A DNA stretch of 64,000 nucleotides, taken from assembly GCF_041346925.1 (NCBI RefSeq), contig NZ_CP166840.1:3719001-3783000 (forward strand), written 5' to 3'. The notes beneath the pieces are model-generated. The model ran no database searches, was not told the DNA's origin, and worked only from the letters and a program-made list of their open reading frames with translations. Positions 55,340 to 58,462 of the stretch are shown here, piece by piece. The stretch's first letter is position 1. The number at the start of each line of letters is the position of its first letter. This DNA comes from Agaribacterium sp. ZY112. Its GTDB lineage: Bacteria > Pseudomonadota > Gammaproteobacteria > Pseudomonadales > Cellvibrionaceae. The position numbers and the translations under genes were made by a program.

Positions 55340-55627
55340 ATGAACAAACAACTTTTATCAGCATCCCTCGCCTTAGGCGCAGCCTTAGGGCTTAGCAGCC
55401 AATCTAGCCTTGCTGTACCAGACAGCCCAGCAGCGTGGGAAAAATGCGCTGGAATTGCAAAAGCAGGAAAAAATGACTGCGGAGCCCTAGATGGAAGTCA
55501 TAACTGTGCAGGACAAGCTCGAATTGATAATGCCGACCATGAGTGGGTCTACGTACCAGAAGGAACCTGCGAAAAAATTACTGGCGGATCAATCGCTAAA
55601 ATAAAACCTGCTAAAAAAGAAAAGTAG
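55340..55627 (+). CDS. bufA: Bufferin-type RiPP precursor (DUF2282, BufA)
   Basis: A 95-residue precursor: a signal peptide (about 1-25, ending SQSSLA) and a short core with exactly four cysteines, Cys36, Cys47, Cys56 and Cys77. The pattern EKCAGIAKAGKNDC, then HNCAGQA, then VPEGTC matches the DUF2282 family of bufferin precursors. A Lys-rich tail follows. ATG 55340 has a good ribosome-binding site (GAGATGGA); the frame runs upstream to 55244, but that part is not family-like. In known bufferins, cysteines are converted to thiooxazole-type heterocycles that bind copper. It is the first gene of a five-gene operon. Confidence 0.9.
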   Translation: MNKQLLSASLALGAALGLSSQSSLAVPDSPAAWEKCAGIAKAGKNDCGALDGSHNCAGQARIDNADHEWVYVPEGTCEKITGGSIAKIKPAKKEK

Positions 55628-55636
55628 ATTTTAATA

Positions 55637-56530
55637 ATGCCTTTTCAGATCCAAGGAGCAGGCTTCGGCCTGCGTATTCCACATATACAAGAACTACTGG
55701 CAACTCGACCACCAGTTGACTGGTTAGAGGTCCATATTTGTAACTTTTTAGGATCGGGCCTTAACCGAGCTTTATTGGATGCAGTTGCAGAACATTATGC
55801 TCTGAGCTTTCACAGTGTCAGCCTTAACTTAGGTGGTAGCCAAGAGCTTAGCGATGATTATTTAACTAGATTGAGTATAACGGTTAAGGAGCTCAACCCT
55901 GGGTTAATCTCTTGTCATGCCTGCTTTAGTGCCCATGAAGAGCAGTATTACCACGATTTATTACCTGTACCATTTAACGAACAAACTCTTATAAATATGA
56001 CCGATAGAGTCGATCATATTCAAAATCGCTTAGGCCGGCAGATCTTAATAGAAAACGTTAGCCGTTACCTTAACTACCCCAACATGGAAATGGATGAACA
56101 AACATTTTTAGTTGAACTATGTAGACGAAGTGGCAGCCGTTTATTACTGGATTTGAGCAATATTTATATCAACGCATTTAACCTTGGCTGCGATTTACGC
56201 GCACTGCTTATCAATTTCCCTATAGAGCTTATTGGAGAACTACATCTAGGTGGTTTTAGTACTCAAGACGGCTTATTTATTGATAGCCACTGCAGTGCTA
56301 TCGATGATGGTACTTGGCAGCTGGCCAAAGACTATTTATATAACCAAGCATCAAACCCACAAACTAAAACGATACCGCCCCTCTTAGTTGAGTGGGACCA
56401 AAATCTCCCAAGCCTTTCTACACTACTTGAAGAACAGAAAAAAGCTCAGCAATTAATACACGGTGCGGAGCAACAGCAACGCCTACTTACCTCCCCAAAA
56501 CCAAAACTGCCGGACCTAGCTAATGCTTAA
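55637..56530 (+). CDS. bufB: MNIO family iron enzyme (DUF692, BufB)
   Basis: A multinuclear non-heme iron-dependent oxidase of 297 residues, expected to modify the cysteines of the upstream precursor. TIM-barrel motifs typical of DUF692 are present: LSFHSVSLNLGG (His59), SCHACFS (His94), IENVSRYL (Glu139/Asn140), LDLSNIYINAFN (Asp172/Asn175), ELHLGG (His203), IDSH (Asp216/His218) and VEWD (Glu252/Asp254). The usual H-x-A-G-H motif reads HLGGF, so its second His is Phe207. It starts nine bases after bufA and overlaps the next gene by eight. Confidence 0.9.
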   Translation: MPFQIQGAGFGLRIPHIQELLATRPPVDWLEVHICNFLGSGLNRALLDAVAEHYALSFHSVSLNLGGSQELSDDYLTRLSITVKELNPGLISCHACFSAHEEQYYHDLLPVPFNEQTLINMTDRVDHIQNRLGRQILIENVSRYLNYPNMEMDEQTFLVELCRRSGSRLLLDLSNIYINAFNLGCDLRALLINFPIELIGELHLGGFSTQDGLFIDSHCSAIDDGTWQLAKDYLYNQASNPQTKTIPPLLVEWDQNLPSLSTLLEEQKKAQQLIHGAEQQQRLLTSPKPKLPDLANA

Positions 56531-57206
56531 TACGCTTAAAGTCGATGCATTATCAAAAGCCAATCAAGACTATAAAAAACAGTTAGATCAGTGTTTAAAT
56601 GAACTTATGACCTCATCAAAAAACACTCTAACTCAAAAGCCTTATAGAAATAGCATTTACCAAAGAAACGCACTTGGAGCACGAAGCCAAACTTTACGTA
56701 ATAATTTCCCCAGCCTCTGCGAACAATTAACAACTGAAGACTGTACTGCGTTATTTCACTGCTATAGCTTGCACTACCCCTCCAAACATTGGGACCTCAA
56801 CCTTTACGGAAACCAATTAAGCTGGTTTATTGCACAGCAGCACAAAGGACCTAAAGCTAACTATTACAACTGGGCAGAGCTCGCCAGTATAACAGCAATA
56901 GAATACGCTATTACTCAACTCTATTATTCAGGGCTAGATTATAAGCATGACGAACAAACAAACATAGAAAAGAAAACAACTATTGAGCTGGATTTCTCAT
57001 CACTTGACTATTTCAGTGCCCTCACGCTAGAAACACTGAAGATAATTCAACAAAAGCATAAACTATTGCATATAAAAATTTATAACTATAGAGGCGGCAA
57101 TAACAACCAGCAAAGTAAAAAAGATAGGTACAGTAAATTTCAACTGCAACAACATGACTTTACTATTGAGTTACGTAGCATTGACACGCCAGATGAAACA
57201 GCATGA
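56523..57206 (+). CDS. bufC: DUF2063-like partner protein (BufC type)
   Basis: A 227-residue protein in the position of the MNIO partner that binds the precursor. The N-terminal 110 residues fit the DUF2063 pattern: YRNSIYQRNALGARSQTLRN, LRNNFPSLCEQLTTEDC and YPSKHWDLNLYGNQLSWFI. The C-terminal half has no recognised domain, and the protein is shorter than many BufC homologues. Start ATG 56523 overlaps bufB by eight bases, so the two are translationally coupled. Confidence 0.72.
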   Translation: MLNTLKVDALSKANQDYKKQLDQCLNELMTSSKNTLTQKPYRNSIYQRNALGARSQTLRNNFPSLCEQLTTEDCTALFHCYSLHYPSKHWDLNLYGNQLSWFIAQQHKGPKANYYNWAELASITAIEYAITQLYYSGLDYKHDEQTNIEKKTTIELDFSSLDYFSALTLETLKIIQQKHKLLHIKIYNYRGGNNNQQSKKDRYSKFQLQQHDFTIELRSIDTPDETA

Positions 57207-57277
57207 CTGGATCACAACAGCTCCAGAAGCCAAACACCTTGGAACAAGAACTAGCTAAACAAGATGACAGACGCTGA
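57203..57277 (+). CDS. Possible 24-codon coupling frame between bufC and the sigma factor
   Basis: A short frame opens at an ATGA overlap with the bufC stop and ends at 57277, inside the first codons of the sigma-factor gene (start 57264) but in another frame. The product would be hydrophilic (MTGSQQLQKPNTLEQELAKQ and four more residues). It may only keep ribosomes moving to the sigma start, or be chance. Confidence 0.25.
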   Translation: MTGSQQLQKPNTLEQELAKQDDRR

Positions 57278-57728
57278 ATTACAAGCACTTTATCAATACG
57301 CTATGGTTTTATGCCAAGAACCGGCAGATGCTTATGATCTTGTGCAACACAGCTTGGAGCAGTGGCTCAACGCTGGAAAGGTGCCTGCAGGTAATGGTCA
57401 ACAACCTTTTCTTCGCAGCTGTATACGCAATCGTTTTATTGATGAGTACAGGCATAAACAACGCTTCGCACAGCAAAGCTATGAAGAACACAGTGATTAC
57501 GACATTTCCCCAATAGACTTAGAAGAACTAATTATAAACCGGCAAGAGCTAGAAAAAATCTGGCCAGAGCTAGCCCTCGAGGATAGAGATATACTCTATC
57601 ATTGGGCCGTACTTGGTTACACAACCGACGAAGCCTGTGAGCAACTCGGCTTAGCTCGAGGTACATTTCTTTCGCGCATGCATAGACTACGAAAACACTG
57701 CCGTTTAACGTTTGTAAGGCAGGCATAA
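57264..57728 (+). CDS. ECF-type RNA polymerase sigma factor
   Basis: A 154-residue group 4 sigma factor. Region 2 (about 8-65) includes AYDLVQHSLEQWLNAG and FLRSCIRNRFIDEYRHKQRF. Region 4 (about 100-150) is a helix-turn-helix, YTTDEACEQLGLARGTFLSR. No promoter of recognisable ECF type was found before bufA, so its target sites are unknown. It is followed after two bases by a membrane protein in the usual anti-sigma position. In relatives, bufferin operons are under an ECF sigma factor responding to metal stress. Confidence 0.88.
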   Translation: MTDAELQALYQYAMVLCQEPADAYDLVQHSLEQWLNAGKVPAGNGQQPFLRSCIRNRFIDEYRHKQRFAQQSYEEHSDYDISPIDLEELIINRQELEKIWPELALEDRDILYHWAVLGYTTDEACEQLGLARGTFLSRMHRLRKHCRLTFVRQA

Positions 57729-57730
57729 CG

Positions 57731-58462
57731 ATGAAAAAAAACACAACCGACCAAAATTTACGCCAATCTATCAAAGAGCACAGTACAGAATATAGCCTTA
57801 ACTCACAACAGCTCTGTGAGCTGCACTGTTTGCTTGATAAAGGCAAACAAAATCCGAAAAACTCAAAGCATGCGCTAATACCACACACAGTCAAAACGCC
57901 AACTAAAATGGGCTACGCTAAAAACCCAAGCCACGACGAAACAAAATCTAATGCATTTTCATCCATCACCTTATTTATTGTGAGTCCCTGGGTAAAAGGT
58001 ATGATTGCAGCATGTTTCACCTTGCTTTTAGTACTCGCGCTTCCGAACCTCAACAACAGTAACTCAACTATTTACAAAGCCATCGCTAACGAGGTGATAG
58101 CCAATCACCTAAAACTAAAACCCTTAGATATTAAAACGGCTAACTTTTCTGAAGCCAGTCAATACTTCTCTCTGTTGAGTTTTAAGCCTAGTGAAAGTAC
58201 CTTTGTTAAGGACTCAAGCCCTAAATTGCAACTACTTGGAGGTCGTTACTGCTCTATCAAAGGTGTTGAAGCTTCACAATTTCGCTATAAAACCAATACC
58301 CAAGGCATCGCCACACTTTATCAAGTACCCTATACAGACAGTAGTTTTGGTACCATACCTAACGTAGAACAGCCCCCTATCAAACTAATTGAAAAAGGTT
58401 TGAAAGTCAGTATGTGGCAAGAAAATGGCTTAATGATGGTTCTTGTAGAAACAGCGCCTTAA
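57731..58462 (+). CDS. Probable anti-sigma factor, single-pass membrane protein
   Basis: A 243-residue protein: a cytoplasmic N-terminus of about 85 residues, one membrane helix (about 88-105, VKGMIAACFTLLLVLALP) and a periplasmic domain. That domain carries the motif GGRYCSIKG (170-178) followed by a TLYQVPY strand and ends in WQENGLMMVLVE. I have seen this domain pattern next to ECF sigma factors in other proteobacteria. The N-terminus lacks the H-x3-C-x2-C zinc motif. Cys174 in the periplasm could sense metal or redox state. Position two bases after the sigma gene supports the role. Confidence 0.7.
   Translation: MKKNTTDQNLRQSIKEHSTEYSLNSQQLCELHCLLDKGKQNPKNSKHALIPHTVKTPTKMGYAKNPSHDETKSNAFSSITLFIVSPWVKGMIAACFTLLLVLALPNLNNSNSTIYKAIANEVIANHLKLKPLDIKTANFSEASQYFSLLSFKPSESTFVKDSSPKLQLLGGRYCSIKGVEASQFRYKTNTQGIATLYQVPYTDSSFGTIPNVEQPPIKLIEKGLKVSMWQENGLMMVLVETAP

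Follow-up and report, generated by a model that had tools for sequence, protein, structure and literature searches.

An operon that ends in genes for its own sigma and anti-sigma factors raises the question of whether that pair controls it and, if so, which signal the pair answers. Such an operon lies at positions 55340-58462 of the 64,000-nucleotide stretch of Agaribacterium sp. ZY112 analyzed here (contig NZ_CP166840.1; hereafter, the window), and it is of the bufferin type. Bufferins are widespread copper-binding ribosomally synthesized and post-translationally modified peptides (RiPPs), and their regulation by an extracytoplasmic function (ECF) sigma/anti-sigma pair has been worked out for the type represented by SigF-NrsF of Caulobacter. 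The five genes, all on the forward strand, follow in the order bufA-bufB-bufC-sigma-anti-sigma, with intergenic gaps of 9, -8, 57 and 2 bases, and the reading frames are exactly where a sequence-only reading of this DNA had placed them. We consider it likely that this Buf1 operon, whose product would be a copper-buffering peptide, has a dedicated ECF switch of its own that amplifies itself.

The gene families proposed in the sequence-only reading were examined against Pfam and NCBIfam profiles, which bear out a bufferin-type operon that includes genes for an ECF sigma factor and an anti-sigma factor. The proposed four-cysteine precursor BufA (55340..55627, 95 aa) matches DUF2282 with 84.5 bits (cut-off 22.4), presents cysteines at residues 36, 47, 56 and 77, and has an N-terminus that by eye looks like a signal peptide. 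The proposed DUF692/MNIO maturase BufB (55637..56530, 297 aa) matches MbnB_TglH_ChrH (PF05114) with 263 bits (cut-off 25). Furthermore, it keeps E31, N36, H59, H94, Q129, E139, N140 and D172, as well as N175, N182, H203, D216, H218, E252 and D254, all of them conserved in the 50 other rows of the alignment; by sequence, these polar residues are of the kind that forms a metal site. A broken MNIO was considered and rejected, these residues being intact, and the departures from the family are Ser167, where 98% of the other rows have Cys, and Ser174, where 92% have Asn. The DUF2063-like partner BufC (56523..57206, 227 aa) was also recovered, with a weak match to Pfam DUF2063 (30.8 bits, cut-off 27.2). 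The ECF sigma factor (57264..57728, 154 aa) scores above the cut-off for Sigma70_r2 (29.4 against 24), Sigma70_r4_2 (27.4 against 25.7) and NCBIfam TIGR02937 (49 against 42.9). It groups in a single clade with its counterparts from other such pairs (support 98/97), in a tree that included five sigma factors from outside the group and whose bootstrap had not settled.

The last gene (57731..58462) encodes a protein family without a name in either library. No Pfam family reaches its cut-off with the window protein, and NCBIfam yields nothing up to an E-value of 1. For the 26 members of our alignment (A1), Pfam E-values go no lower than 0.0061, and the best NCBIfam match is a general anti-sigma model in four of the 26 (best E-value 0.0013). 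A protein search gave 39 proteins, the query included, a sequence search of the PDB gave no match up to an E-value of 1, and a plasmid search gave none. NrsF (PF06532) was rejected as the identity of this protein, which has no match to that Pfam family; PF06532 is likewise not one of the 15 Pfam families listed among the 26 A1 members, and it is missing from the whole genome to which the window belongs.

In an AlphaFold2 model with a mean predicted local distance difference test (pLDDT) score of 79, mostly above 90 for residues 111-243, two N-terminal helices (6-20 and 25-40) and a poorly predicted linker precede a helix at 86-103, which we read as a membrane segment, and a periplasmic alpha/beta domain. 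The best solved matches of this domain are RseB and MucB, at about 10% identity, and the predicted fold resembles their C-terminal domain. RseB and MucB are separate periplasmic proteins, whereas in the window protein the domain is fused into the anti-sigma factor itself. Cys174 (codon 58250-58252), Arg172 and Trp229 are present in 92 of 92 non-redundant sequences, the window's included, and His126 in 89 of 91 aligned sequences; exactly one periplasmic cysteine is found in 90 of the 91 anti-sigma factors bearing the G-G/A-R-Y/F-C motif. We infer that the protein acts as an anti-sigma factor because its gene sits after the sigma gene and because of its topology. The earlier suggestion of a probable membrane anti-sigma factor gains a predicted membrane helix. 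In the model, the two N-terminal helices would fit a short sigma-contacting end such as that of CnrY, which contacts both sigma domains (PMC7406223), or of AabA, for which the same is predicted (PMC12153292).

The pair and the bufferin genes largely travel together. This anti-sigma factor was found in 24 genomes (12 of 58 in one set and 17 of 244 in another, five being in both), many of them drafts in which linkage across contigs can be missed, and the pair lies beside bufA in 19 of the 24. The full set of five genes occurs in 18 of the 19; in two of those (G056 and G096) DoxX stands between bufC and sigma. A scan of a named collection with two conserved peptide stretches, which misses divergent members and favors conservation of the stretches themselves, gave 119 confirmed anti-sigma loci, the best 80 of which were fetched. 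These 80 come from Shewanella, Algicola, Pontibacterium, Microbulbifer, Sessilibacter, Methylococcaceae and Thiotrichaceae, and also from records labeled Hyphomicrobiales, Myxococcales, Bdellovibrionales and Calditrichia, labels that may be wrong for metagenome bins. Where at least 3 kb of upstream sequence was available, buf genes precede the anti-sigma gene in 60 of 69 loci (58 with bufA and 58 with bufB), and all five genes stand in order in 54. Because the identical order recurs in so many loci, the arrangement is far from chance, and this recurrence, together with the tight spacing, substantiates the earlier view of the genes as one unit. The sigma gene was counted in 77 of the 80 loci; the sequences of L197 and L204 begin with the anti-sigma gene, and L170 has a sigma match that failed the position filter.

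A two-box motif stood out upstream of bufA in a phylogenetic footprint of the 19 linked loci, and in the window it takes the form of a predicted ECF-type promoter, TGCAATCAAA-N11-TTCGT (55254..55279, forward strand), 60 bases ahead of the bufA start codon. The genes lie where the sequence-only reading had them; the conserved promoter falls outside the span that it had given the operon. The motif was scored as TGCAATCAAA-N10..12-TTCGT, with at most two mismatches allowed in the 15 fixed positions, and with bufA start codons chosen by rule, some of which may be misplaced. It precedes bufA in 18 of the 19 discovery loci, six times exactly, a figure that is partly circular because the linked set itself yielded the motif. 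Among loci outside the discovery set it precedes bufA in 45 of 51, and none of 740 letter shuffles reached two mismatches or fewer. Where no bufA was called, as was the case in 12 new loci, the motif precedes the sigma gene in five. This named-set scan left unscored two loci without sigma and, for lack of upstream sequence, two bufA and two sigma loci.

The motif tracks the regulator: in genomes without the pair, none of 43 bufA genes carries it at this threshold, the best having three mismatches. This comparison of linked and unlinked bufA drew on 72 DUF2282 places, from which three weak ones (21.7-23.3 bits) were left out and among which L118, L126 and L127 gave no BufA frame. One of its 71 sets of 20 shuffles (L089) reached two mismatches, the mean being about five. 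Two of the nine unlinked bufA genes in pair-bearing genomes carry the motif. They belong to G042 and G084, the pair being solitary in both and the motif-bearing bufA located on a different contig. These two sites are the strongest hint in the sequences that the pair could act in trans, a hint weakened by the two genomes being from one family and by the further bufA copies of G084 that lack the motif. The neighbors around the pair are the same in both genomes, and in G084 an exact site is also found upstream of the pair itself.

Across 63 sites, AAT and CGT never vary and GC and CAA seldom do, a conservation that owes part to selection, the sites having been chosen at no more than three mismatches and at one spacer length. 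The only exact match in the 4.28 Mb genome of the window is the site before bufA; three further sites have one mismatch, and with up to two mismatches allowed the pattern matched 18 sites and a reversed-pattern control 6. In 12 genomes of the named set, three of which had also been part of the first set, seven of seven exact sites precede bufA, and the control gave 6 sites against 20 at up to one mismatch. The co-occurrence of sites and regulator argues strongly that the sigma factor would read the TGCAATCAAA-N11-TTCGT promoter.

Several further observations weigh against a dedicated switch for a bufferin or narrow its scope. The scored loci are related, Shewanella supplying 21 of the best 80, and the remaining six of the 51 new loci have three or four mismatches. 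Sites with one mismatch are not specific, since only two of 13 precede bufA in the 12 named-set genomes, the other 11 having no buf genes near. The pair lacks adjoining buf genes in five of the 24 genomes (G042, G084, G012, G031 and G171). G084 holds two more bufA copies without the motif, G012 and G031 have no listed site with two mismatches or fewer before an MNIO gene, and G171, where a DoxX-like gene stands ahead of the pair and the anti-sigma gene is split by a contig end over two contigs, has no MNIO gene. In G023, bufA and the pair are present with neither bufB nor bufC between them. The best NCBIfam model for BufB is MNIO_BufB (NF050167; 278.3 bits, the next of five models scoring 169.4), and membership of that equivalog is not claimed because the score is below the curated cut-off of 310 bits. 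BufC is short and is without the C-terminal segment found in the longer BufC proteins of its alignment (A2), so that peptide recognition may differ.

Some loci depart from the common layout in other ways. In L019 (from G023, and identical to L178) and in L135 the sigma gene directly follows bufA with no bufB called, and in L175 bufC alone stands between bufA and sigma, again with no bufB called; these may be precursors without a maturase of their own, or assembly effects. In G031 (L024:7005-8201) sigma and anti-sigma are fused in one open frame of 398 residues, with no bufferin genes found adjoining. Small frames between promoter and sigma were inspected by eye in the loci without buf genes, and none was convincing as a hidden precursor. 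L092 and L095 combine bufferin genes and DoxX with a nearby sigma factor from outside the clade and without this anti-sigma factor, and perhaps represent further regulator types. A one-mismatch site, TGCAATCAAATGTCTTTCCAGATCGT, stands in a Glaciecola record (L200:5847-7065) before frames that by eye are thioredoxin-like and CcdA/DsbD-resembling, 1.4 kb ahead of a sigma/anti-sigma pair that has no buf genes, and possibly hints at a thiol signal. Another, TGCAACCAAAACGAATGAAGTTTCGT, is identical in three Shewanella genomes (L220, L222 and L214, from G276, G277 and G280) with no buf genes near, and could be a second target or a conserved coding stretch.

The gene families, the operon order, the conserved association of the pair with buf genes, and the promoter and its tracking of the regulator are established, and they can be joined in a scheme in which sensing is the least sure step. 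At rest, the sigma factor would be kept at the inner membrane by its anti-sigma factor. A signal in the periplasm, most likely a surplus of copper or of some other thiophilic metal, or else an oxidant, would act on the single invariant periplasmic cysteine and free the sigma factor, which would then guide RNA polymerase to the promoter ahead of bufA. The whole operon would be transcribed, sigma and anti-sigma included, and because the sigma gene belongs to the transcribed operon this would give positive feedback on sigma, with the anti-sigma factor as a brake. In the cytoplasm, BufB and BufC would convert two cysteines of BufA, presumably by thiooxazole chemistry, and after export by Sec the peptide would bind a metal, putatively copper, in the periplasm. 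It is this product that suggests a metal signal.

Copper is a candidate signal, and a redox signal fits as well, given the thioredoxin-like gene behind the one-mismatch site of L200. An identical switch could thus answer periplasmic oxidative or disulfide stress from hypochlorite or peroxide, the peptide protecting thiols or the envelope and binding copper only incidentally, and a single invariant periplasmic cysteine could react with oxidants. There is a precedent in Haemophilus influenzae, where, during hypochlorite stress, an MNIO-DUF2063-DoxX cluster is governed by the ECF sigma factor RpoE2 (PMC7907618). However, the anti-sigma factor of that system, HrsE, is described as a 67-residue cytoplasmic zinc-motif protein, unlike the membrane protein of the window, and rpoE2 lies near msrAB, outside the MNIO cluster (PMC7907618), whereas the window sigma gene is inside the operon; moreover, bufferins are described as copper chelators (PMC12452194). 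We regard the oxidative signal as possible but rather unlikely.

The RseB-like fold of the periplasmic domain suggests instead regulated proteolysis, in which this domain would shield the anti-sigma factor from a site-1 protease and give way on a general envelope signal; the operon would then be one arm of an envelope stress response and the cysteine structural. We think this unlikely. That the pair is simply a neighbor by synteny, with no control over bufABC, would be in keeping with the five genomes in which it has no adjoining buf genes and with the 57 bases between bufC and sigma in the window. Against this, the pair adjoins buf genes in many families of Pseudomonadota and in Myxococcales- and Bdellovibrionales-labeled records, and the promoter precedes bufA, in two genomes even a bufA that sits on a different contig from the pair, and is absent from all 43 bufA genes of genomes without the pair. 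Mere synteny is accordingly very improbable, and the dedicated switch is the reading that we compare with known systems below.

The closest system is that of Caulobacter, where sigF-nrsF (CC3253-CC3252) controls CC3254-CC3257, adjacent by gene number (PMC3511200, 2012). As in the window, an ECF sigma factor and a membrane anti-sigma factor adjoin a DUF2282-DUF692-DUF2063 operon, and conserved cysteines are reported for NrsF (PMC3511200). In contrast, NrsF (DUF1109/PF06532) has six membrane segments, compared with one predicted helix in the window protein; the Caulobacter promoter is GTAACC-N16-CGAA rather than TGCAATCAAA-N11-TTCGT, and GTAACC is absent from both strands of 55149-55339; and the Caulobacter operon includes DoxX, with the pair as a separate unit, whereas the window pair ends the operon. 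DUF2282 is found in 60 of the 244 genomes and NrsF in 10 (seven above the cut-off), and, draft contigs permitting, the two occur in one place only in G154 (L084). There, NrsF and a sigma factor of another clade stand divergently beside bufA, and two GTAACC-N16-CGAA sites are present: one precedes the start of bufA by 57 bases, and the other lies where the sigma gene begins.

In the survey of Buf1 clusters (PMC12452194), the core genes are those of the window operon, and sigma-70 domains and NrsF are listed as frequent. Because sigma factors and NrsF are thus already reported in such clusters, the regulator inside the operon, which the sequence-only reading had singled out, is present and is not new in itself. 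The novelty lies in which regulator it is: an anti-sigma factor that is not NrsF, a sigma factor in a separate clade, and a distinct promoter that accompanies them. In the parts of that survey drawn on here NrsF is the only anti-sigma factor named, and its main text contains neither "Shewanella" nor "promoter", compared with the Shewanella share of our loci. The SigAb-AabA-AabB system of Acinetobacter baumannii is similar in being a copper-responsive ECF system with a small membrane anti-sigma factor, and its predicted AabA-SigAb interaction has been compared with CnrY-CnrH (PMC12153292). It differs in having two separate anti-sigma proteins, AabA in the membrane and AabB in the periplasm, and the sections of its description drawn on here mention no bufferin genes (PMC12153292). 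No mention of this anti-sigma family or promoter was found in the literature searched, which covered neither supplements nor most subscription papers.

What the window presents is a real and well conserved variant of bufferin regulation. We propose more tentatively, holding it a little more doubtful than probable, that it belongs to an unnamed group of ECF pairs, in Gammaproteobacteria and other phyla, dedicated to switching bufferins from one promoter, and that the anti-sigma factor is a new kind of sensor: its end that binds sigma would be short, a lone membrane helix would follow, and the RseB-like domain fused to them would sense copper or thiol stress directly through the invariant cysteine and His126. 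With a second regulator type, an exact promoter and a single candidate sensor residue, the trigger of a bufferin operon becomes directly testable, for example in cultured Shewanella, and this regulator type also gives a marker by which a protein family without a name in public libraries can be annotated.

BufC was compared across loci because a protein search for its homologs returned BufC alone; a PDB sequence search gave no match up to an E-value of 1, and Foldseek none under 0.001. The C-terminal pattern used in that comparison is crude, matching 27 of 51 BufC proteins outside the short group and none of nine inside it. The partner proteins of PME-type 1 are described as a full-length DUF2063 domain plus a RiPP recognition element (RRE), about 260 residues in all (PMC12452194), compared with the 227 residues of the window BufC. 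In L183, L191 and L199 the BufB frame is about 515-585 residues long with no separate BufC called, and these may be BufB-BufC fusions.

The operon lies on a complete chromosome of 4,280,525 bases and shares its flanks with A. haliotis: on the left these are alanine dehydrogenase and the gene beyond it, on the right a major facilitator superfamily transporter and an enolase-family gene. G003, a relative in the genus, carries the operon. The draft genomes G001 and G002, of the same genus, contain a single MNIO gene apiece, compared with two in the window genome (G000) and in G003, and no anti-sigma factor of this type was found in them, so part of Agaribacterium probably lacks the operon. The window genome has a second MNIO cluster near 4244517 (L001), of the oxazolin/captophorin kind, with an EGKCG-repeat precursor, an MNIO gene and, by eye, DUF2063-like and DoxX-like frames; it is not among the listed promoter-like sites of that genome.

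The operon contains no DoxX gene, in agreement with the sequence-only reading. Sigma-70 and terminator scans found no terminator-like site on the forward strand between 55100 and 59400, and no sigma-70-like site ahead of bufA. An Rfam scan of the window gave two tRNA genes and nothing else; they stand in tandem at 38005-38212 on the reverse strand, with equal scores. Directly downstream of the operon, at 58551-59300, lie the remnants of an aldehyde dehydrogenase gene, two frames that match positions 1-36 and 362-440 of a 461-position profile, with a stretch between them that is too short for the rest of the gene.

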